Of a stretch of DNA of 35,641 bases, positions 2,554-35,641 are shown in pieces. Every line of letters starts with the position of its first letter. Positions within the stretch are counted from its first letter, which is position 1. The position numbers were made by a program, and so were the translations under genes. This DNA is from an uncultured Bacteroidota bacterium (lineage in GTDB: Bacteria; Bacteroidota; Bacteroidia; Flavobacteriales_D; Sanyastnellaceae): NCBI GenBank assembly GCA_903932685.1, contig CAIZGX010000027.1:1-35641 (forward strand). Direction: 5' to 3'. Below the pieces are notes generated by a model, which worked only from the letters and a program-made list of their open reading frames with translations, did not search any database and was not told the origin of the DNA.

Positions 2554-3181
2554 AGTCGCTTTGGTCGACGACCACACCATTTTGCGCAATGGAATTAAAA
2601 GTATTTTGTCGAAAGACTACAAGAAGCGATTCGACATTGTTGCTGAATTTTCCAACGGAAAAGAATTCTTAAATGAGCTCAACAACCTCGAACTCGACGT
2701 TGTGCTGCTCGATCTAAACATGCCTGTGAAAGGTGGCGCCAATACGCTGGAAATTCTTCAGCTCTCGCACCCTTCCGTGCGGTGCATTGTGCTAACGCAA
2801 TTAAGCATGGACTACATGGTTGAATCGTGCATGAAATTGGGCGCACGCGCCTTCCTTCCCAAAGAAGTAAAACCGCTCGAACTGAAACGCGCCATTGAAA
2901 CGGTGCACGCCGAAGGCTATTATTACAATCAGCTCTTCACTGAAGAATCGCTTCAAAACCCAACTTCACGAAAAAAGAAAAGCGAGCAACTCACGCTTCA
3001 AGAAAAACGTGTATTGCGCTACATTGTCACCGGCTCTAAGACCCACGAAATAGCTGAGACATTGGGCCTAAGCGAAAGCACCATTAAATCGCACCGCGAG
3101 AATATTCATCGAAAACTAAATACTTCTAATCCGTTTGAACTAACAACTTATTGCATTCGAAATGGGATTGTTTTGGAATGA
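2534..3181 (+). CDS. LuxR/NarL-family response regulator
   Basis: The ATG at 2534 is preferred over an upstream in-frame TTG because the receiver domain starts directly (KIKVALVDDH). The protein has 215 residues. In the receiver, Asp12-Asp13 form the acidic pocket, Asp60 in LLDLNMP is the phosphoacceptor, Thr88 and Lys110 are the switch and conserved lysine. A LuxR-type helix-turn-helix occupies about residues 145-210, with LTLQEKRVLRYI and LSESTIKSHRENIHRKL. It overlaps the kinase gene by 20 bases, so the kinase is almost certainly its partner. A microhairpin array begins five bases after the stop. Confidence 0.93.
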   Translation: MSNQKIKVALVDDHTILRNGIKSILSKDYKKRFDIVAEFSNGKEFLNELNNLELDVVLLDLNMPVKGGANTLEILQLSHPSVRCIVLTQLSMDYMVESCMKLGARAFLPKEVKPLELKRAIETVHAEGYYYNQLFTEESLQNPTSRKKKSEQLTLQEKRVLRYIVTGSKTHEIAETLGLSESTIKSHRENIHRKLNTSNPFELTTYCIRNGIVLE

Positions 3182-3185
3182 CCAT

Positions 3186-3257
3186 TTGCAAAGCAAGAAT
3201 GCCCGAAGGGCGAATGTGCAAGCACGAATGCCCGAAGGGCGAATGTCTGCGACGATT
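3186..3257. repeat. Microhairpin array, GAAT-separator family (5 hairpins)
   Basis: Five hairpins are separated by the constant tetranucleotide GAAT: TTGC-aaa-GCAA, GCCC-gaa-GGGC, GTGC-aa-GCAC, GCCC-gaa-GGGC, GTC-tgc-GAC, then GATT. The arms differ between units but stay complementary within each unit. The array starts right after the response-regulator stop. There is no T-tract, so it is not an ordinary terminator. GAAT is the reverse complement of the ATTC separator used near 33-35 kb. Confidence 0.9.
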
Positions 3258-4242: not shown

Positions 4243-4328
4243 ATTGCGAAGCAATCAATCCTTCGGATCAATCACCTTCGGTGATCAATCGCTTTGCGAT
4301 CAGTCACTGCGTGATCAATGCTGCGGAT
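4243..4328. repeat. Microhairpin array, CA-separator family (6 hairpins)
   Basis: Six hairpins are separated by exactly two bases, CA: ATTGC-gaa-GCAAT, ATCC-ttc-GGAT, ATCACC-ttc-GGTGAT, ATCGC-ttt-GCGAT, GTCAC-tgc-GTGAT (one G-T wobble), ATGC-tgc-GGAT (one mismatch). Arm length varies from 4 to 6 while separator and loop length stay constant. The array begins seven bases after the stop codon of the T9SS cargo gene and has no T-tract. Confidence 0.92.
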
Positions 4329-4364: not shown

Positions 4365-5033
4365 ATGGCATTTCTATTTCTCATTGTTTGCTTCATAATT
4401 CGAATAATAGCGATTGGCTTGTTGCTTCGAAATAGAAAAACATTCGGGATTCAAATTTGGCCTTTGGTCATTTTCAATAGCGCTTCCTTGGTGTCAGATG
4501 TCCTTGGTTCTATTTTTTGTTTTCTTGAAATAAACAATTCACTGATCATTAATATCTACACCGTTTTCGAACTTTTATTCGTCACTTTTTATTCTTTACG
4601 ATTGGTTCAACTGAATCGCTACATCACACTATTCTCGAAGATTCTTTCAATTTCAATTTCAATTATCCTCTGCATAGAAATAATCTTCTACAAGACGAAT
4701 ATTCTAACCGAAGCTATTTCGGGATATGCAATTATTCTTCAAAGCACTATTATTTTGATCTGCTGCCTTTCAATGATTGCTCAATTAAAACCAAACAACT
4801 CCTCAATGCCGCCTGAATTGATTGTCTTGTTTGGCCTTTTTATTTATTCCTGTTTGTGCATCTTACCTACCCTTGCATACATACTGTACTTCGATTGTAA
4901 CAACAATTATACTTTCTCACTATTCACATATACCTCTATTGGAATTGGAAATATCATTCGAGACTTTTGCTTCGGATTGTTCGGAGTTCTCTTGTATCGG
5001 AATAATCGCAAAGCGATTGATTCAAAGAATTGA
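4365..5033 (+). CDS. Multi-pass membrane protein, paralogue of the 1121 gene product
   Basis: This 222-residue hydrophobic protein has about seven membrane segments and no soluble domain. It shares size and hydropathy with the 1121-1774 product, and its C-terminal segment (GIGNIIRDFCFGLFGVLLYR) matches the same position there (GNTLRNLLLTYLFYLRR). No kinase gene follows it. The last nine or so codons (NRKAIDSKN) and the stop codon lie inside a microhairpin array, so the natural C-terminus was probably replaced or extended by repeat insertion. Function unknown. Confidence 0.75.
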   Translation: MAFLFLIVCFIIRIIAIGLLLRNRKTFGIQIWPLVIFNSASLVSDVLGSIFCFLEINNSLIINIYTVFELLFVTFYSLRLVQLNRYITLFSKILSISISIILCIEIIFYKTNILTEAISGYAIILQSTIILICCLSMIAQLKPNNSSMPPELIVLFGLFIYSCLCILPTLAYILYFDCNNNYTFSLFTYTSIGIGNIIRDFCFGLFGVLLYRNNRKAIDSKN

Positions 5034-5058
5034 TCACGCAGTGATTGATCCGCAGGAT
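5005..5058. repeat. Microhairpin array, TG-separator orientation (4 hairpins), overlapping a CDS end
   Basis: ATCGC-aaa-GCGAT, ATTC-aaa-GAAT, ATCAC-gca-GTGAT and ATCC-gca-GGAT are separated by TG, the reverse complement of the CA separator at 4243. The TGA stop of the upstream gene (5031-5033) is formed by a TG separator plus the next base. The arrays at 4243 and 5005 therefore flank the membrane-protein gene in opposite orientation. Confidence 0.92.
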
Positions 5059-5850: not shown

Positions 5851-5889
5851 ATCCGCAGGATTGATTGCGTAGCAATTGATTCGAAGAAT
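5851..5889. repeat. Microhairpin array, TG-separator orientation (3 hairpins)
   Basis: ATCC-gca-GGAT, ATTGC-gta-GCAAT and ATTC-gaa-GAAT are separated by TG. Unlike most other arrays, it lies between two divergent gene starts, directly before the likely promoter of the methyltransferase gene at 5922. Confidence 0.88.
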
Positions 5890-18940: not shown

Positions 18941-19918
18941 ATGGGAAAATATTCTACAATGCGTGAGTTCATGGAGAGCAATTATTTGCACTTCAACTCT
19001 GCGGCTTTGGTTGACGCAGCCAAAGGTTACGAAGCACACTTAACAGAAGGTGGCAAAATGATGATCACGCTTGCTGGAGCTATGTCTACGGCAGAGCTTG
19101 GAATTTCATTGGCTGAAATGATTCGCGCTGGAAAGGTGGATATCATCTCTTGCACAGGTGCGAACCTTGAAGAAGACCTTATGAATTTGGTTGCTCACGA
19201 TCACTACGAACGTGTTCCGAACTACCGCGATTTAACTCCGCAAGAAGAATGGGGTTTGTTAGAGCGTGGCTTGAATCGCGTTACTGACACGTGCATCCCG
19301 GAAGAAGAAGCGTTCAGAAGATTGCAAAAACACATTCATGCACTTTGGGCAGATGCGCAAGCAAAAGGCGAGCGCTATTTCCCGCATGAGTTCATGTACA
19401 AAATGATATTGAGCGGTGTGTTGGAGCAATACTACCAAATTGACCCTAAGAACTCTTGGATGATTGCTGCTGCAGAGCGTAACCTTCCAATCATTTGTCC
19501 AGGATGGGAAGATAGCACCATGGGAAATATTTTCGCGAGCTATTGCATCAAAGGCGAAATTCAACCGACCACTATGAAAAGCGGTATTGAATACATGATG
19601 TGGTTAGCAGATTGGTACACAAAAAATTCAGGTGGAAAAGGCGTTGGATTCTTCCAGATTGGAGGAGGTATTGCGGGTGACTTCCCTATTTGCGTGGTGC
19701 CTATGCTTTATCAAGATATGGAAATGCACGACATTCCATTCTGGGGATACTTCTGTCAGATTTCAGACAGCACAACCAGCTACGGCTCTTACAGCGGAGC
19801 GGTTCCAAACGAAAAAATTACATGGGGTAAACTAGATATTCACACTCCTAAATTTATTATTGAAAGTGACGCAACCATTGTTGCTCCTCTTATTTTTGCA
19901 TGGCTATTAAATCACTAA
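18941..19918 (+). CDS. Deoxyhypusine synthase-family protein
   Basis: This 325-residue protein carries the deoxyhypusine synthase fold signatures: MMITLAGAMSTAELGISLAEMIRAGKVD, CTGANLEEDLMNLVAHDHY, and a final EKITWGKLD in which Lys297 matches the catalytic lysine that forms the enzyme-aminobutyl intermediate. FIIESDATIVAPLIFAWLL closes the protein. Bacteria lack eIF5A, and bacterial members have been linked to polyamine synthesis instead. The neighbouring arginine decarboxylase fits that. No agmatinase gene is present between them. Confidence 0.88.
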   Translation: MGKYSTMREFMESNYLHFNSAALVDAAKGYEAHLTEGGKMMITLAGAMSTAELGISLAEMIRAGKVDIISCTGANLEEDLMNLVAHDHYERVPNYRDLTPQEEWGLLERGLNRVTDTCIPEEEAFRRLQKHIHALWADAQAKGERYFPHEFMYKMILSGVLEQYYQIDPKNSWMIAAAERNLPIICPGWEDSTMGNIFASYCIKGEIQPTTMKSGIEYMMWLADWYTKNSGGKGVGFFQIGGGIAGDFPICVVPMLYQDMEMHDIPFWGYFCQISDSTTSYGSYSGAVPNEKITWGKLDIHTPKFIIESDATIVAPLIFAWLLNH

Positions 19919-25414: not shown

Positions 25415-26029
25415 ATGAGTTCAAGTTCGAAGTGGATAGAAACTGCCGTTGACCAAATGTCTTCTTTGCCTGGCATTGGACGTAAGACCGCGCTTCGTCT
25501 TGTGCTAGATCTTCTGCGCCGTTCGAACGATGAAGTGGAGCGTTTCTCTTCTTCCTTTCAACTCATGAAACAACATGTGCAATTCTGTTCGAATTGCCAC
25601 AACCTTTCAGACGATAAGCTCTGCGGAATTTGTTCCAACGACAGAAGAGACAAACAAACCGTTTGCGTGGTTGCCGACATTCGCGATGTGATGGCGGTGG
25701 AAGGCACTTCGCAGTTTCACGGATTGTATCATGTGCTCGGCGGATTAATCTCTCCTATGGACGGCATTGGTCCTTCGGATTTAACCGTGCAAAGCTTGAT
25801 TGAACGCTGCGAGCGTGAAAGTGTTACTGAAATCATCTTCGCGTTCAACGCAACCATGGAAGGAGAAACCACGGCGTTTTATATTTCTAAAAAACTACAA
25901 GCACTTCCGGTTACCATCACCTCCATTGCACGCGGAATAGCCGTTGGCGCAGAGTTGGAATACACCGATGAGATTACGCTCGGGCGCAGTTTACAGCAAC
26001 GCGTACCCTACGGAAAAGCAAACTCTTGA
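25415..26029 (+). CDS. recR: Recombination protein RecR
   Basis: The ATG at 25415 gives 204 residues, the normal RecR length; the longer frame begins inside the intergenic region. The N-terminal helix-hairpin-helix includes LPGIGRKTALRLVLDLL. The zinc finger has Cys58, Cys61, Cys70 and Cys73. The Toprim domain begins VCVVADIRDVMAVEGTSQF and continues YHVLGGLISPMDGIGP. RecR works with RecO and RecF to load RecA at gaps. The glycosyltransferase gene follows after 17 bases. Confidence 0.97.
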   Translation: MSSSSKWIETAVDQMSSLPGIGRKTALRLVLDLLRRSNDEVERFSSSFQLMKQHVQFCSNCHNLSDDKLCGICSNDRRDKQTVCVVADIRDVMAVEGTSQFHGLYHVLGGLISPMDGIGPSDLTVQSLIERCERESVTEIIFAFNATMEGETTAFYISKKLQALPVTITSIARGIAVGAELEYTDEITLGRSLQQRVPYGKANS

Positions 26030-26046
26030 TATTGTATCTTAGCCAA

Positions 26047-27963
26047 ATGCGTTTAACCGTCATCATTGTCAACTACAACGTCAAGTATTTCCTTGAACAA
26101 TGCCTCGCTTCTGTTCACGCTGCTATGCGTGGAATTGAAGTTGAAGTGATTGTAGTTGACAACAACAGTGTTGACGGTTCGAATGAAATGGTGGAAGAGA
26201 AATTCCCTTGGGTGAATCTCATTGCCAACAAAGACAACACGGGATTTTCGAAAGCCAACAACCAAGGCATGCGCATTGCCAAAGGCGAATACATTTTGTT
26301 GTTGAATCCAGATACCGTTGTGAAGGAAGATACTTTTTCGAAAGTACTGCACTTCATGGATGCACATCCAGAAGCAGGTGGACTGGGCGTTCCCATGGTC
26401 GATGGAAAAGGAATTTTACTTCCGGAATCTAAACGCGGACTTCCCACTCCGGAAACAAGTTTTTATAAGATTTTTGGAATCTCGAAAATATTTCCAAAAA
26501 GCAAAAAATTCAACCGGTATTATTTAGGACATCTCAGCTACGATGAAACATGCGAGATTGAAATTCTCGCTGGAGCGTTTATGTTCATGCGGAAAAAAGC
26601 ACTCGATCAAGTGGGTTTGTTAGACGAAGCGTTCTTCATGTACGGAGAAGACATTGATTTGAGCTGGCGCATTATTCAAGGCGGATGGAACAATTACTAT
26701 TTTCCTGAAACCAGTATTATTCACTACAAAGGAGAGAGCACGAAGAAAGGCAGTTTAAACTACGTCTATGTTTTCTACAACGCCATGATCATTTTTGCGC
26801 GCAAACATTTTTCGGCGTCGCATGCAAAATGGTTTTCATTCTTCATTCAAGTAGCCGTGTGGATGCGTGCTTCTGTTTCCATTGTGTCGCGTGTTGTTAC
26901 GGCAAGCCTGTTGCCACTGGCAGATGCAGCAGTGCTCAGTTTAGGCATTTACACTTTCGCCGATCACTACTCGCAATGGCAATCGAAGAATTTCGACGGC
27001 TCACTCATGTTAATCTCAGCAAGCGTCATAACAGCTTTCACCTTAATTGGAAACTGGTTGAACGGCGCCTACGACAGACCGGTGTTTCCGCAACGTACGC
27101 TAAAGGCTGTTCTTTTGGTTTCAATAATTACGCTTCTTATTTACTCGCTTCTTCCTGAGACCATTCGTTTCTCGCGAATTGTAATTCTTTTAAGTTCTCT
27201 TTTCGCCATTGTTTCGCTTCCCCTTGTGCACGCAGTGTTCAGCAAAATCATTTCTGGAAAATGGAATTGGCAAGGAAATCCGAAGAAGAGAATTTTGCTC
27301 ATTGGTTCGGAGGAAGAAGGAATGCGTGTTCAAACCTTTTTACATCAAATAGACTATCCCATTGCTTCCTTTGAGCAAATGAATTCGGAAAAATCAAGAA
27401 GCCTTTCGCTATTCGAATATGTTCGCATTCACAAAATTCAAGAAGTCATTTTCTGCGCGAAAGATTTAAGCAGCAGTGAAATTATTTCAGAAATGGGCGC
27501 GCTTTCTTCTCTTCAACTTGAATTCAAGATTGCCCCGCCCGAGAGTTTATTCATCATTGGAAGTCAGCATATACAGAGCGCTACAGAAGGTTTCTTTGTA
27601 ACCGTAAACTCCATTTCCAACACGCTTAACAAACGCCAAAAGCGCGCCTTCGATTTAATTAGCTCCTTCTTCACACTCGTTCTTTTTCCATCTATTCTCT
27701 TCACTTCAAAACCGTTAACTGCATTCACAAATGGACTAAAGGTTTTTGTTGGAAAAAAATCGTGGGTGGGTTACGGGAAAGTCAGTGCTGAATTCGCTAG
27801 TCAACTTCCAAAAATAAAATCAGGGATTTTAACTCCGAATAAAAACGCAATGGTTCTAAACGAAGATGGCATCCAACAAATGAACGCCATCTACGCAAAA
27901 GATTATTCTTGGTGGAAGGATTTCAAATCCTTCACTTCACAATTCAAACAGATTGGAAATTAA
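26047..27963 (+). CDS. GT2 glycosyltransferase fused to membrane and degenerate sugar-transferase-like regions
   Basis: The ATG at 26047 starts the GT2 fold directly (MRLTVIIVNYNVKYFLEQ) and gives 638 residues. The GT2 part (about 1-245) has VVDNNSVDGS, NTGFSKANNQG, LLLNPDTV with Asp89, and FMYGEDIDLSWR. Several membrane helices follow (about 255-375). A Rossmann-like region starts RILLIGSEEEGMRVQ. The end, KRQKRAFDLISSFFTLVLFPS then GKKSWVGY and LPKIKSGILTP, resembles the membrane anchor and rim of polyprenyl-phosphate sugar-1-phosphate transferases, without their catalytic Asp-Glu core. It probably acts in surface-polysaccharide synthesis. The end overlaps the convergent gene by four bases. 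Confidence 0.82.
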   Translation: MRLTVIIVNYNVKYFLEQCLASVHAAMRGIEVEVIVVDNNSVDGSNEMVEEKFPWVNLIANKDNTGFSKANNQGMRIAKGEYILLLNPDTVVKEDTFSKVLHFMDAHPEAGGLGVPMVDGKGILLPESKRGLPTPETSFYKIFGISKIFPKSKKFNRYYLGHLSYDETCEIEILAGAFMFMRKKALDQVGLLDEAFFMYGEDIDLSWRIIQGGWNNYYFPETSIIHYKGESTKKGSLNYVYVFYNAMIIFARKHFSASHAKWFSFFIQVAVWMRASVSIVSRVVTASLLPLADAAVLSLGIYTFADHYSQWQSKNFDGSLMLISASVITAFTLIGNWLNGAYDRPVFPQRTLKAVLLVSIITLLIYSLLPETIRFSRIVILLSSLFAIVSLPLVHAVFSKIISGKWNWQGNPKKRILLIGSEEEGMRVQTFLHQIDYPIASFEQMNSEKSRSLSLFEYVRIHKIQEVIFCAKDLSSSEIISEMGALSSLQLEFKIAPPESLFIIGSQHIQSATEGFFVTVNSISNTLNKRQKRAFDLISSFFTLVLFPSILFTSKPLTAFTNGLKVFVGKKSWVGYGKVSAEFASQLPKIKSGILTPNKNAMVLNEDGIQQMNAIYAKDYSWWKDFKSFTSQFKQIGN

Positions 27964-31921: not shown

Positions 31922-32926
31922 TTATTGAGAATCGTGATACCATTTTGTTAGTCGTGATTTCTCAATTTTAGGCACATAGCCAAGTTGTTTATTGCACAAG
32001 TCTTTTAAATGATTTGCAACGGTTTCAAAGTTGTCTTTAAATTGATAACCTAAAATAATTTTTTCAATTTTCGGAATGGGGATTTTTGCTTCGTCCGAAA
32101 TAGATTTAAACTTTGAGTGATAAATTGGAAGTTCTAAATACTTTATTGTGTGCGTCCTATTTGAAGACTTGGAAATGTCCGTTCGAATAATTGGTGATGT
32201 AACCTCGTTTTTAAATGAGTAAGTAGTCGGTCCAACCGTTTTAATTTTTCTATGATCAAAGAGTAACCGTACTTCTTGTTCAAGTTTAAATAGCCGAGAT
32301 TTATGAAAGCAAACTATTTGACCTAAGTCAACAGAAACTTGGGGCTTAGAATTTTCAAGTTGTGATTGAAGTTTGTTTAACCCTTTAAGATTTGTCTTTG
32401 ATGAAGCGCCATAAAGAACTTTGGAGAGAAAATAATCATTCCAATTCACAGGCTGACTTTCGTCAAAACTTAATTCAATGGCTACCCCCTCTCCATTATT
32501 TCCATAAAGCCGCCACATGTTAAATTCAATCTCTTTTGTGTCTTTGCTCGTCAATAAAGATTTTTCACACATTGATAACAAGTAAAAATTATCTTTTGCA
32601 TCCTTTCGCCTGTCAGCATCTGTAGTGATCAAGTCCCCTGTAAAAGAATATTCTCTTGGATCATTTAGGTTACGAAGGTTGTAAAGTCGAAGGTTACGAT
32701 CTGTGATTATGGACTGAATAGCAATCAAGTTTGTAAAATGAATGAAGCGCAAACGACCTTTATAAAAATATTCACTGTGTTCTAAATTTTTATTGTCAGT
32801 TGGAATGAAAAAATGAGCTTGATTAACCTCATTAACATTACCTTTTCTTGTAGAATTAATCGTCACACTTGGAACTAGCTGATTAATTTCCTTAATGATT
32901 CTTTTCTCTTTTACTGTCTGTTTCAT
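31922..32926 (-). CDS. DUF2971-type protein
   Basis: This 334-residue soluble protein matches what I recall of DUF2971: RLRFIHFTNLIAIQSIITDRNLRL and NLNDPREYSF early, MWRLYGNNGEGVAIEL in the middle, and SRLFKLEQEVRLLFDH later. Its function is unknown; members are often found in accessory regions and near defence genes. The DNA is clearly more AT-rich than the neighbouring housekeeping genes, suggesting acquisition. It is followed upstream by duplicated non-coding modules. Confidence 0.78.
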   Translation of the reverse strand: MKQTVKEKRIIKEINQLVPSVTINSTRKGNVNEVNQAHFFIPTDNKNLEHSEYFYKGRLRFIHFTNLIAIQSIITDRNLRLYNLRNLNDPREYSFTGDLITTDADRRKDAKDNFYLLSMCEKSLLTSKDTKEIEFNMWRLYGNNGEGVAIELSFDESQPVNWNDYFLSKVLYGASSKTNLKGLNKLQSQLENSKPQVSVDLGQIVCFHKSRLFKLEQEVRLLFDHRKIKTVGPTTYSFKNEVTSPIIRTDISKSSNRTHTIKYLELPIYHSKFKSISDEAKIPIPKIEKIILGYQFKDNFETVANHLKDLCNKQLGYVPKIEKSRLTKWYHDSQ

Positions 32927-32961
32927 TCTTTTGTTTTATGTGGTAGCTAACGCTACAAACC

Positions 32962-33067
32962 TACCCAATGCATGCCAACAAAGCGAGATAAGCGAAAGTC
33001 TGTTGCGATTAAATAAAAGTAATTAAAAGAAAAGCTGAGAAATTAATTGTTCAAAACAATTCTTCCA
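32962..33067. repeat. 106-bp intergenic module, copy 1
   Basis: This block aligns without gaps to 34754-34859, with 85 of 106 positions identical by hand count. Both copies begin TACCCAAT and end TCAAAACAATTCTTCCA. Both are followed on the plus strand by microhairpin arrays and preceded by a small perfect hairpin. Confidence 0.85.
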
Positions 33068-33074
33068 TACCCCT

Positions 33075-33103
33075 AATGTCTTTGACGAATGCCCTCGGCG
33101 ATA
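33075..33103. repeat. Microhairpin array, GAAT orientation (2 hairpins)
   Basis: AAT is followed by GTC-ttt-GAC, separator GAAT, then GCC-ctc-GGC and GATA. It is a short or decayed array, opposite in orientation to the one at 33173. Confidence 0.7.
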
Positions 33104-33172
33104 TTAATTACTCAGACGAAAAACAAAGCAAAAAAGAATGAGAAACACAAGGAGAATGAGAATGATAATTTC

Positions 33173-33226
33173 GTCAAAGACATTCGCGAAGCATTCGCCC
33201 GAAGGGCATTCGTCTGAAAGACATTC
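33173..33226. repeat. Microhairpin array, ATTC orientation (4 hairpins), left flank of ORF6N gene
   Basis: GTC-aaa-GAC, GC-gaa-GC, GCCC-gaa-GGGC and GTCT-gaa-AGAC are separated by ATTC and followed by ATTC. The 54-bp block is repeated at 33953-34006 with only two changes, both in loops. Confidence 0.92.
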
Positions 33227-33302
33227 TTCCCCCGAATAAACAGCATATAAACTGCATATAAAGGTTAGTGCGTTTTCCAAATCCCAGAAATATGTTTGTC
33301 TT

Positions 33303-34028
33303 ATGAAACAAAAGCTTATTAAATCGCGAATATTCATCATTCGTGGAAAGCAAGTTATGTTTGACAGAGACTTAGCTCGGTTGTATAACGTTCAAACGAG
33401 AGTTCTAAATCAAACTGTAAAGCGCAACGCCAAAAGATTTCCTGAACAATTTATGTTTCAGCTAACCTCTGAGGAATTCGATAATTGGAAGTCACAAATT
33501 GTGACATCCAATTCTGAAAAAATGGGATTAAGAAAACTACCGTATGTATTAACAGAGTATGGAGTGGCAATGTTATCAGGTGTTTTAAATAGTGAAATCG
33601 CGTTAAATATTAACATTGAAATTATCCAAACGTTTATCGATTCACGTGCCAGCACGAAACATTCACCATCATTGCAAAGACGAGTTAGTGAAATTGAATC
33701 GAGACTTATTAATCAAGAAAACAAATTCAACGAAATTTTTAATTTCATATCTGAAAATAAGTTTCCTCAATCGGGTATTTTCTTCCAAAATCAAATCTTC
33801 GATGCGTACGTCTTTTCAGATGATAAAGAACTCTATCATCTTGGCGCGTCATTGAAGGATTTAGGAAAACGATGGTTTGCATTTTCAATCCCGATAGCTA
33901 TCAGGAGGATGGACTCGTGTCTCAAATACTCTCCCATCTTCATTATTAGGAAGTCGAAGACATTCGCAAAGCATTCGCCCGAAGGGCATTCGTCTGAAAG
34001 ACATTCTAGAGGGGTTTCACCCATCTAA
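33303..34028 (+). CDS. ORF6N-domain protein, apparently internally deleted with a repeat-encoded tail
   Basis: Of the 241 residues, the first 115 or so form an ORF6N domain (phage antirepressor/DNA-binding type): IIRGKQVMFDRDLARLYNVQT, VLNQTVKRNAKRFPEQFMFQL and LPYVLTEYGVAMLSGVLNS. A coiled-coil-like link follows. Then FFQNQIFDAYVFSDDKELYH and LGASLKDLGKRWFAFS appear joined, whereas in full-length relatives I recall a region of some 60-70 residues between them. After FAFS the frame continues into unrelated sequence and a microhairpin array (KTFAKHSPEGHSSERH). It is probably a decayed gene. Confidence 0.75.
   Translation: MKQKLIKSRIFIIRGKQVMFDRDLARLYNVQTRVLNQTVKRNAKRFPEQFMFQLTSEEFDNWKSQIVTSNSEKMGLRKLPYVLTEYGVAMLSGVLNSEIALNINIEIIQTFIDSRASTKHSPSLQRRVSEIESRLINQENKFNEIFNFISENKFPQSGIFFQNQIFDAYVFSDDKELYHLGASLKDLGKRWFAFSIPIAIRRMDSCLKYSPIFIIRKSKTFAKHSPEGHSSERHSRGVSPI
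33953..34006. repeat. Microhairpin array, ATTC orientation (4 hairpins), inside the ORF6N gene end
   Basis: GTC-gaa-GAC, GC-aaa-GC, GCCC-gaa-GGGC and GTCT-gaa-AGAC are separated by ATTC. It is a direct repeat of 33173-33226. It codes the C-terminal tail of the ORF6N protein. Confidence 0.92.
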
Positions 34029-34103: not shown

Positions 34104-34661
34104 TTATTGCACTTCTACGTCGGTGGTGGCCACAGCCACTATTTCGCTGTTTATGATTACAGGAACGGCGCGTGTTCTCATCCACACCTCGCCACCTCCG
34201 GCATCAAAATAAGGCTCGGTCCAAATGGCATAACCACTGTCGATAGGCTGGCGCAGCCAAGTTTGTTCGTCTATTTGATAGACCGAGTCTGCCAAGTTTT
34301 TCAAAGCCAAGTTATTATTCAAGCGATACCAATAAGGGCTGTAGTAAACCTTTCCAGTGCTGTCTAATAGCGCCACGGTGGCACCGAAGAAACTCCCCGA
34401 TTGGGCCGCCAAATAATCCTGTACCCGGGCGGAAAGGCTAGCAGAATCGAGTGGTTGAGACTGCAAATCCGCCACAAAGGCGTCCAGTGCTACTTCGTAA
34501 ACCAACAAGGGATTTGGGTCAACTTGGTCATTCTCTTTTTTGCATGACGACACTACCAGCAACAGCCCTAAGGCATAAGTCATGGCACGTAGTAAGGCTT
34601 TTGTTCGGTAGATGGAGTTTGGGGCGCTTACTCCGCTCTCAGTCGATTTCTGTTTTGCCAT
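34104..34661 (-). CDS. Lipoprotein with a Cache-like sensor domain
   Basis: The protein has 185 residues from the ATG at 34661; an internal ATG at 34583 (residue 27) would give a tighter lipoprotein signal (MTYALGLLLVVSSC then Lys-Lys), so the start is uncertain. The C-terminal part, YAIWTEPYFDAGGGEVWMRT, then AVPVIINSEIVAVATTDVEV, matches the strand pattern of dCache domains that bind small ligands in bacterial chemoreceptors and kinases. No signalling domain follows, so it may be a free-standing binding protein or a remnant. The base composition looks GC-richer than its neighbours. Confidence 0.65.
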   Translation of the reverse strand: MAKQKSTESGVSAPNSIYRTKALLRAMTYALGLLLVVSSCKKENDQVDPNPLLVYEVALDAFVADLQSQPLDSASLSARVQDYLAAQSGSFFGATVALLDSTGKVYYSPYWYRLNNNLALKNLADSVYQIDEQTWLRQPIDSGYAIWTEPYFDAGGGEVWMRTRAVPVIINSEIVAVATTDVEVQ

Positions 34662-34753
34662 TTTTTTTAAATTAAATTGCTATTAACATTTTGAAACTAC
34701 AAGAAGTTGGCGATAACGCCTACCCATAACTCGCTTAAGCGCGCTATAAAACA

Positions 34754-34859
34754 TACCCAATATATGTCATTATCTCGAGATAGGCGAAGGTTTGTTCCGG
34801 TTAGCTAAAGGTAATTAAAAGGAAAGAGCAGAAATTAATTATTCAAAACAATTCTTCCA
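34754..34859. repeat. 106-bp intergenic module, copy 2
   Basis: This block is the ungapped partner of 32962-33067 in the same orientation, 1,792 bases apart. The ORF6N and Cache-like genes lie between the copies, so the segment has the form of a unit flanked by direct repeats. Confidence 0.85.
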
Positions 34860-34957
34860 CTCTCTTAACCTCTCTTACCTTTTCTTACCTAAGGTCGAAA
34901 GATATTTCGACCCGATTAATCTTACCTTTTCTTAACTTCTCTTAACTCTTCATAAAC

Positions 34958-34996
34958 GTCGCAGACATTCGCGAAGCATTCGTATGAAAGACATTC
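34958..34996. repeat. Microhairpin array, ATTC orientation (3 hairpins)
   Basis: GTC-gca-GAC, GC-gaa-GC and the degenerate GTAT-gaa-AGAC are separated by ATTC. Compared with 33173 it lacks the GCCC-gaa-GGGC unit. Confidence 0.82.
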
Positions 34997-35101
34997 TTCC
35001 CACCTCTTCCCTTTTCTTCCCTTCTCATAACTTCTCTCAAGCGTGACTTCAGACACCAAAACACAAAAACAGATTCACCATCTTCGCGAAAACAATCGGA
35101 T

Positions 35102-35641
35102 ATGAATGCTGAATTTTGGAATGCACGATACAGTGAAGAGGGGTTTGCATACGGACAAACACCCAACGAATTTTTCAAAGAACAAATCGATAAACTTTCA
35201 GTTGGAAAAATTCTATTTCCTTGCGAAGGGGAAGGTCGCAACGCCGCGTATGCTGCAGCATTGGGATGGGAGGTTGAGGCCTTCGATTTAAGTGAAGTTG
35301 GAAAACAGAAGGCTATTGATCTAGCAGGTTCCTTCAACGCGAAAATCAATTATGAGATATGTAACGTTGCCGACGCAAACTTTGAAGACAACACCTTCGA
35401 TGCCGTTGTACTCATCTATTCGCATCTTCCCGAAACACTTCGAATTGATTTACACGGGAAAATTAAAAACTGGCTAAAACCCGGCGGTGTCGTTATTCTA
35501 GAAGCATACAATCCCCTTCAACTCAACAACAGCTCTGGCGGACCAAAAGAAATTCAAATGCTCTATTCCATTGAAACACTCATGAGCGATTTTCATGGAA
35601 TGCACTTTGAAATTTTAGAAGAAAAACAAGTCGAACTCAAC
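35102..35641 (+). CDS. SAM-dependent methyltransferase, cut by the right edge
   Basis: From the ATG at 35102 an open frame of 180 codons runs to the window end without a stop. It begins MNAEFWNARYSEEGFAYGQT, followed by KILFPCEGEGRNAAYAAALG (motif I, with CEGEGRNA) and EVEAFDLSEVGKQKA, then FDAVVLIYSHLP and LKPGGVVILEAYNP. This is a class I methyltransferase of the TehB/Methyltransf_25 type with unknown substrate. It is not closely related in motif I to the methyltransferase at 31066. The C-terminal part is outside the window. Confidence 0.85.
   Translation, partial: MNAEFWNARYSEEGFAYGQTPNEFFKEQIDKLSVGKILFPCEGEGRNAAYAAALGWEVEAFDLSEVGKQKAIDLAGSFNAKINYEICNVADANFEDNTFDAVVLIYSHLPETLRIDLHGKIKNWLKPGGVVILEAYNPLQLNNSSGGPKEIQMLYSIETLMSDFHGMHFEILEEKQVELN

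Follow-up and report, generated by a model that had tools for sequence, protein, structure and literature searches.

Single genes lie between related, folded, and locally co-oriented attC sites in the gene-cassette arrays of integrons. REPs consist of one palindrome, with a stem of 5–13 or 8–9 bp, and an unpaired GTAG or CGTC tag (excerpts of PMC3733652). The oligonucleotide d(GCGAAGC) is known as an extraordinarily stable DNA mini-hairpin, and a Tm of 76.5 °C is tabulated for a 2-bp hairpin (excerpts of PMC10527192). LIMP, in Lobosphaera mtDNA, consists of a single long stem, built of repeated pentamers, with a 7-nt loop (excerpts of PMC4524435). We analyzed a stretch of 35,641 nt (the window) from a 96% complete draft genome (G000) and compared it with other genomes of the genus (G001–G008). 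On balance, we favor reading two 54-bp repeats near its right end as lineage-specific arrays of mini-hairpins, and co-oriented arrays of this kind as recombination joints between single-gene modules.

The array pair at the right end of the window

Array 1 (33173..33226, + strand) reads GTC-aaa-GAC, GC-gaa-GC, GCCC-gaa-GGGC, GTCT-gaa-AGAC with ATTC spacers, and array 2 (33953..34006, + strand) reads GTC-gaa-GAC, GC-aaa-GC, GCCC-gaa-GGGC, GTCT-gaa-AGAC. A preliminary description had presented the two as direct repeats 780 nt apart with two differences in 54 nt, both in loops (GTC-aaa-GAC/GTC-gaa-GAC and GC-gaa-GC/GC-aaa-GC) and with all stems identical, and this is what we find. It had also taken the pair for repeats flanking a 780-base unit with one phage-type gene. 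An ORF6N gene resembling phage anti-repressors, with paralogs in its own genome, is indeed present between arrays 1 and 2 (33303..34028, +), but it is decayed and its ORF runs through array 2, which lies inside its frame. Nor is the pair a private flanking repeat, as it belongs to a genome-wide family of at least 54 parsed arrays.

Left of array 1 is a DUF2971 gene (31922..32926, −), which is the left neighbor in the window and in G007 and is not beside ORF6N in G004 or G006. Upstream of array 1 we found the first copy of a 130-nt element (D1; 32957..33086, +) and the remnant of an inverted array (33078..33099, −; GTC-ttt-GAC GAAT GCCctcGGC); longer inverted arrays stand head-to-head with a forward array in G002, G004, and G006. 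Arrays 2 and 3 enclose a single-gene unit, a PDC sensor domain gene (34104..34661, −); it adjoins ORF6N in G006 and is not at the corresponding place in G004 or G002. Array 3 (34958..34996, +) is shorter, with an imperfect third unit (GTATGAAAGAC), and lies downstream of the second copy of the 130-nt element (34749..34878, +; 77% to copy 1) and amid degenerate pyrimidine repeats (TCTTaCCTTT-like, family D3; 34853..35044, +). It precedes a unit with a methyltransferase-like gene (MT; 35102..35641, +), which is truncated by the contig end and of which no close relative was found in G007. A further array of the family (3186..3253, −) begins a few bases past an ORF ending at 3181.

Folding arrays 1, 2, and 3 one by one as RNA gave no unusual stability relative to shuffled sequences (z = −0.87, −0.60, and −0.92, respectively); the stretch 33060–33209, which takes in the inverted remnant, is unusually stable (z = −2.40). 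The evidence for hairpins is comparative, not thermodynamic. A tRNA scan found no tRNA.

Grammar and distribution of the array family

A 101-nt query gave 49 BLAST hits in its own genome (E up to 10, the query itself counted), and the pattern GACATTCG-N4-14-CATTCG gave 47 matches in G000, where one array may yield more than one match, against 0 for the reversed control pattern (2 matches over the nine genus genomes). We parsed 54 arrays of at least three units in 261 kb of own sequence, chosen mostly for repeat hits. The hairpins have a stem of 2–6 bp and mostly a 3-nt loop, and a constant 4-nt spacer, usually ATTC, links one to the next (parsed arrays: ATTC 638, CCTC 97, ATTA 64, ATGA 61, CTTC 22, ATCA 18, CCTA 5; the parser admits only these seven spacers and at least three units, and misses other variants). 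The 194 arrays, counted as distinct by sequence with orthologs in several genomes counted apart, contain 905 units, 57 stems, and 210 distinct hairpins in 184 different unit orders. On the ATTC strand, the first unit (the leader) is GTC-gaa-GAC in 96/194 arrays and GTC-gca-GAC in 23/194. The ATTC strand is also the C-rich strand of the locus in 129/194 arrays, a count confounded with gene direction; C excess on this strand may mark the replication strand.

At own loci, 138 of 590 ATTC-to-ATTC segments were perfect hairpins, whereas letter shuffles predict 8; the corresponding figures for relatives are 359 of 1612 and 24. Chains of at least four hairpins at own loci numbered 71 at a constant 4-nt spacing against 5 in one shuffle, and 77 at a 5-nt spacing against 3; one array may enter both counts. 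A generic hairpin-chain detector found 125 chains at own loci against 23 in one shuffle, 9 against 7 in the window alone, 30 against 15 in 239 kb from other genera (14 genomes, a single stretch from each), and 12 against 9 and 11 against 8 in G001 and G003, respectively (60 kb each). The top three chains from other genera are all TAGTCACTA-type repeats on contig L271 (G038, of another genus of the family), which carries such repeats at both ends, near 206 and at 19519–19800.

Units of the form AACtNcGTT or TACtNcGTA with spacers of about 5 nt constitute another class, present within 60 nt upstream of 68/191 arrays. A class with 2-nt spacers consists of ATTGCgaaGCAAT-like units (ATCCttcGGAT) and occupies 4243–4314, 5005–5058, and 5851–5889 of the window. 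Contigs C3, C5, C11, C20, C21, and C27 of G000 are tiny or end close to arrays; array repeats may break assembly, in which case the true array number would be higher.

Among the genomes searched, the array family is confined to one genus. The pattern GAAGACATTCGC..GCATTCG occurs in 7/9 genus genomes and in 0/105 genomes of 20 other genera in the family; the AACtNcGTT class occurs in 8/9 and 0/105, respectively. G001 (95% complete) contains neither, and G003 contains the AACtNcGTT class only. A scan of 84,980 species with the leader pattern returned 81 matching stretches, 78 of them in MAGs of this freshwater Flavobacteriales group (seven assemblies, six of which are among the genus genomes compared). 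The three matches in other taxa (L154, L156, and L196) were rejected as single matches without an array, as was the one match in viral contigs (L286), also single and without an array.

Conservation of arrays and breaks in gene order

We compared arrays between species in alignments with at least 80 nt of flank on each side (47 comparisons), setting aside 29 with indels (some replaced arrays, some poor alignments) and using the 18 ungapped ones. Loops were substituted at 24/202 sites (11.9%), which is the rate of the flanks (1786/16595, 10.8%, all 47 comparisons), and change was slower in stems (11/460, 2.4%) and spacers (3/272, 1.1%); the stem and spacer rates are underestimated, perhaps twofold, because the reference array had to be perfect to parse, and would stay below those of loops and flanks even after a twofold correction. 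Among 230 stem pairs, 224 were unchanged, 5 showed a substitution in both partners (one such change is counted twice, for two genome pairs), and 1 was broken. A count of array pairs made on parsed arrays only is biased toward pairing and was excluded from the rates. At one site with both flanks conserved, ATTC-class hairpins stand in G007 and G004 and CCTC-class hairpins in G008, an array rewritten in place. Arrays are thus both conserved and replaced as units.

At own loci, 40 of 146 intergenic junctions contain an array. With one flank anchored in a relative that had enough sequence beyond, we scored whether the other flank follows. Gene adjacency was kept in 23/62 tests at arrays and in 94/150 controls (Fisher P = 0.0008; the tests are not independent, most of the relatives' loci were chosen for holding arrays, and gene calls were crude). 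Counted by junction, some break was seen at 24/33 array junctions against 26/57 control junctions. Adjacency was kept in 18/54 array tests against 35/61 controls at gaps of at least 120 nt, in 9/33 against 52/91 at co-directional junctions, and in 2/5 against 32/39 at divergent junctions, with no contrast at convergent junctions (12/24 against 10/20). Arrays may simply gather in variable regions. The window and G004 cease to be colinear at two points: 5851, where a 2-nt-spacer array has its edge, and 31870, a point with no visible array in the window and with an array-bearing insert of ∼590 bp in G007. At 26022–26047 of the window, G007 carries ∼1.4 kb of extra, coding-looking sequence in which no array was seen.

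The ORF6N gene lies between two arrays in G000, G004, G006, and G007 and is broken in three of them. Its reading frame is intact in G007 (289 aa) and disrupted in G004 and G006; the window copy (241 aa) lacks 225 bp relative to the G007 copy and contains a 19-nt palindromic stretch (33890–33908) that shifts the frame. This stretch (CCCGATAGCTATCAGGAGG) is common to G006 (there CCCGATAGCTATCGGGAGG) and absent from G007, and the palindrome recurs elsewhere in the genome and beside arrays; this suggests that hairpins can be inserted into genes. The unit order GTC, GC, GCCC, GTCT in both ORF6N arrays is common to G000, G006, and G007; G004 departs from it, with a decayed array 1 and, in array 2, GTTC-aaa-GAAC replacing the GC unit. 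The GC loop difference between arrays 1 and 2 is inherited, because GC-aaa-GC stands in array 2 of both G000 and G006. The GTC loop is gca in G006 and G007, unlike in the G000 arrays.

The neighbors of this module change between genomes. With A denoting one array or a head-to-head pair, the gene order is DUF2971-A-ORF6N-A-PDC-A-MT in the window, DUF2971-A-ORF6N-A-other in G007, fam1-A(decayed)-ORF6N-A-MT-A-fam4 in G004, fam1-A-ORF6N-A-PDC-A-DUF4145-A-MT paralog (53%)-A-nucleotidyltransferase pair-A-fam4 in G006, and A-MT-A-fam4 in G002, where neither ORF6N nor PDC stands beside MT. In G004, the joint lies inside an array: the body of the array right of ORF6N is fused to the array tail found in front of MT in the window, and the PDC unit is absent. 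The left flank of the window's ORF6N array is the one found before MT in G002, and that of the window's MT array is the one found before ORF6N in G006 and G007; these seemingly swapped flanks are themselves repeated elements, and the swap need not be one exchange. The main caveat is that all genomes are drafts (those named in the species scan are MAGs); some joints could be artifacts of misassembly at repeats.

A nucleotidyltransferase and a substrate-binding protein form a paired module between arrays in G006 (contig C24; L120, 8063–8856). Toxin-antitoxin genes sit likewise as modules in large integrons.

The preliminary description had offered recombination or insertion at an array and stem conservation as alternative explanations. 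The slow change of stems and spacers supports the latter. Recombination is supported by an array-ORF6N-array module with differing outer neighbors in four genomes and by joints inside some arrays; the corresponding empty site, DUF2971-array-PDC without just the 780-bp unit, was not among the relatives' loci compared, and the clean joint with a single array, in G004, also lacks the neighboring PDC unit. Both explanations are supported, and they are not mutually exclusive.

Mechanism, alternatives, and known systems

Should co-oriented arrays serve as recombination joints, the single-gene module that they enclose could be deleted, taken in, or rejoined elsewhere, and a chimeric array would be left. 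The hairpins would fold on single-stranded DNA; selection for folding, intrastrand template switching, or both would maintain their stem pairing, and exchange between arrays would swap whole hairpins. The ORF6N gene, broken in three of the four genomes compared, would be a passenger. RecA-type recombination has a threshold of ∼20–30 bases; the 38 exact bases that arrays 1 and 2 have in common should suffice for ordinary recombination of this type. Across the 54 own arrays, the longest exact match to array 1 is 54 (itself), 38, 24, 24, 23, and so on, with a median of 11. Because most arrays share so little exact sequence with array 1, slippage or hairpin-assisted exchange may be needed, and our confidence in arrays as recombination joints is lowered. 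Recombination between co-oriented arrays, by a presumed enzyme, is the simplest account of the joints.

Loop usage bears on the strand state. On the ATTC strand, with the leader included, 2-bp stems have a GNA loop in 59/69 cases (gaa in 51/69) and TNC in none, and 3-bp stems have GNA in 216/342 against TNC in 25; when the leader is excluded, loops on 2-bp stems have G at position 1 in 55/58 cases and A at position 3 in 56/58. GNA loops on short stems, as in the stable d(GCGAAGC), point to single-stranded DNA. This pointer is countered by the reverse bias of 5-bp stems (TNC 68/210, GNA 21), by GAA ↔ AAA exchange (5/19 changed loops), and by fold energies that favor neither strand (mean DNA z = −1.75 and −1.67 for the two strands, 70/194 arrays). 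Loop position 1 changes most (11/64), although a GNA loop should hold it constant, and our DNA energy model predicts no structure for GCGAAGC.

Alternatively, the arrays may function in RNA as 3′-end elements (terminators, attenuators, or stabilizers of mRNA ends, like REP/BIME), so that stem conservation would be selection on RNA and shuffling a side effect following from many similar 3′ ends; we consider this a serious rival, possible though somewhat doubtful. Among the 137 arrays that have called genes on both sides at a distance of up to 600 nt, the left-hand gene is parallel in 79 and the right-hand gene antiparallel in 98, with its stop a median of 17 nt off (≤20 nt in 55); hence, the right array end is often at a stop codon. 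ORF calls overlap 17/194 arrays. REPs, too, are reported mainly downstream of coding regions (excerpts of PMC3733652). At least four T follow the leader hairpin within 12 nt in the gene direction in 39/191 arrays, against 12/191 slightly further on (at least five T: 12 against 5 at the control position, 191 arrays), and this modest excess raised our estimate for an RNA function; the T-run is, however, missing from 152/191 arrays. Stems of 2 bp with a gaa loop (51 units) should be weak as RNA. RNA folding of a sample of 70/194 arrays also gives modest mean z values, −1.09 for the gene-sense strand and −1.45 for its complement, and the window has no Rfam match at the gathering score.

A purely mutational history, with arrays growing by slippage, stems corrected by template switching, no selected function, and synteny breaking passively in variable regions, seems unlikely to us. 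Template switching can create and repair stems (excerpts of PMC8794818), the 194 arrays show as many as 184 unit orders, and several arrays lie near contig ends. Template switching could keep stems perfect but leaves the conserved spacers unexplained, as these change least (3/272) and are beyond the reach of switching within a stem; moreover, some joints lie inside arrays, not merely near them.

We regard as improbable a mobile palindromic element spread by a transposase, such as the IS200/REP-type Y1 protein of the genus, with arrays as its target or product. A Y1 transposase is encoded in G000, G002, G004, and G007, i.e., in 4/9 genus genomes (4/7 with arrays and 0/2 without), one gene lies ∼300 nt from an array (G007, contig C10), and hairpins with a constant 4-nt 5′ neighbor recall the guide-plus-hairpin layout of REPs. 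Against this, no Y1 was detected in three array-bearing drafts (G005, G006, and G008; 71, 96, and 85% complete, respectively), the G000 protein scores above the cut-off of the IS200 model (73.7 bits against 55) and below that of the REP-associated model (21.7 against 80), and the palindromes flanking Y1 genes differ from the arrays. These palindromes, G+C-rich and flanking IS200-like Y1 genes at L238, L239, and L065 (4200–5300), include GCCCCTCGGGGC and GGCATGAGTGTCAGCTCATGCC and are possibly a separate repeat family. The link of the arrays to RAYT, the transposase of the REP/REPIN system, is weak.

It is equally hard to credit, though conceivable, that an unrecognised active system recognizes strings of mini-hairpins on single-stranded DNA, rewrites units in place (even their spacer class), and excises and rejoins single-gene modules. 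Such a system would shuffle genes in an integron-like way with no integron integrase, and its agent might be an enzyme or a replication process. PF00589 has two matches over the cut-off in G000 and one weak fragment of 56 aa. The first tyrosine recombinase scores 334.6 bits as XerD (cut-off 329.6) and 138.7 as integron integrase TIGR02249 (cut-off 265); the second, whose gene is cut by a contig end, scores 246.8 bits as XerC (cut-off 335.15) and 117.8 as TIGR02249. No integron integrase above the TIGR02249 cut-off was found in G000 (96% complete draft). A degenerate chromosomal integron with the arrays as attachment sites is highly improbable: the single-gene modules come in runs, the sites are locally co-oriented and next to stop codons, and the contents are cassette-like (nucleotidyltransferase and partner, DUF4145, DUF2971), but the two tyrosine recombinases of G000 score best as XerD and XerC and lie far below the integron-integrase cut-off, and the layout of the hairpin arrays is one that we take to be unlike that of attC.

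If co-oriented arrays are indeed recombination joints, one genus would have evolved dense, hairpin-built joints between genes that let single genes come and go, with stems that remain paired though replaced as units. The perfection of the palindromes, whether from selection or from template switching, would then be directly testable with many natural replicates.

The GC-gaa-GC unit, among the commonest in the arrays, is like d(GCGAAGC), which is a synthetic or biophysical motif in the excerpts of PMC10527192, whereas the arrays are genomic; the literature searched contained no genomic array of d(GCGAAGC) among the matches listed. LIMP shares with the arrays internally repetitive palindromes, an intergenic position, and a link to rearrangement, but is not a string of small hairpins (excerpts of PMC4524435). 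A description of such hairpin arrays was likewise not among the matches listed from the literature searched, which had subscription papers outside its scope. CRISPR has identical repeats and unique spacers, and the arrays are the opposite, with near-constant spacers and variable hairpins. Like REP/BIME and CGTC-tagged repeats in the excerpts of PMC3733652, the arrays are short, numerous, intergenic, hairpin-forming, lineage-specific, and mostly downstream of genes. Unlike REPs, they contain 3–12 different mini-hairpins with 2–6 bp stems, a constant spacer, and varied stem sequences, and in place of an unpaired GTAG or CGTC beside one 5–13 bp stem, they have, in some cases, a CGTC that runs into the first hairpin. 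Like integron cassettes, they show runs of single genes, locally co-oriented folded sites, and gene gain and loss; unlike them, they have strings of hairpins as sites, genes in either orientation, and no integrase passing the cut-off in G000. The nearest kinds are REP/BIME clusters and integron cassette arrays, for each of which one defining feature was looked for and not found, and we class the arrays as interspersed palindromic repeats with integron-like consequences.
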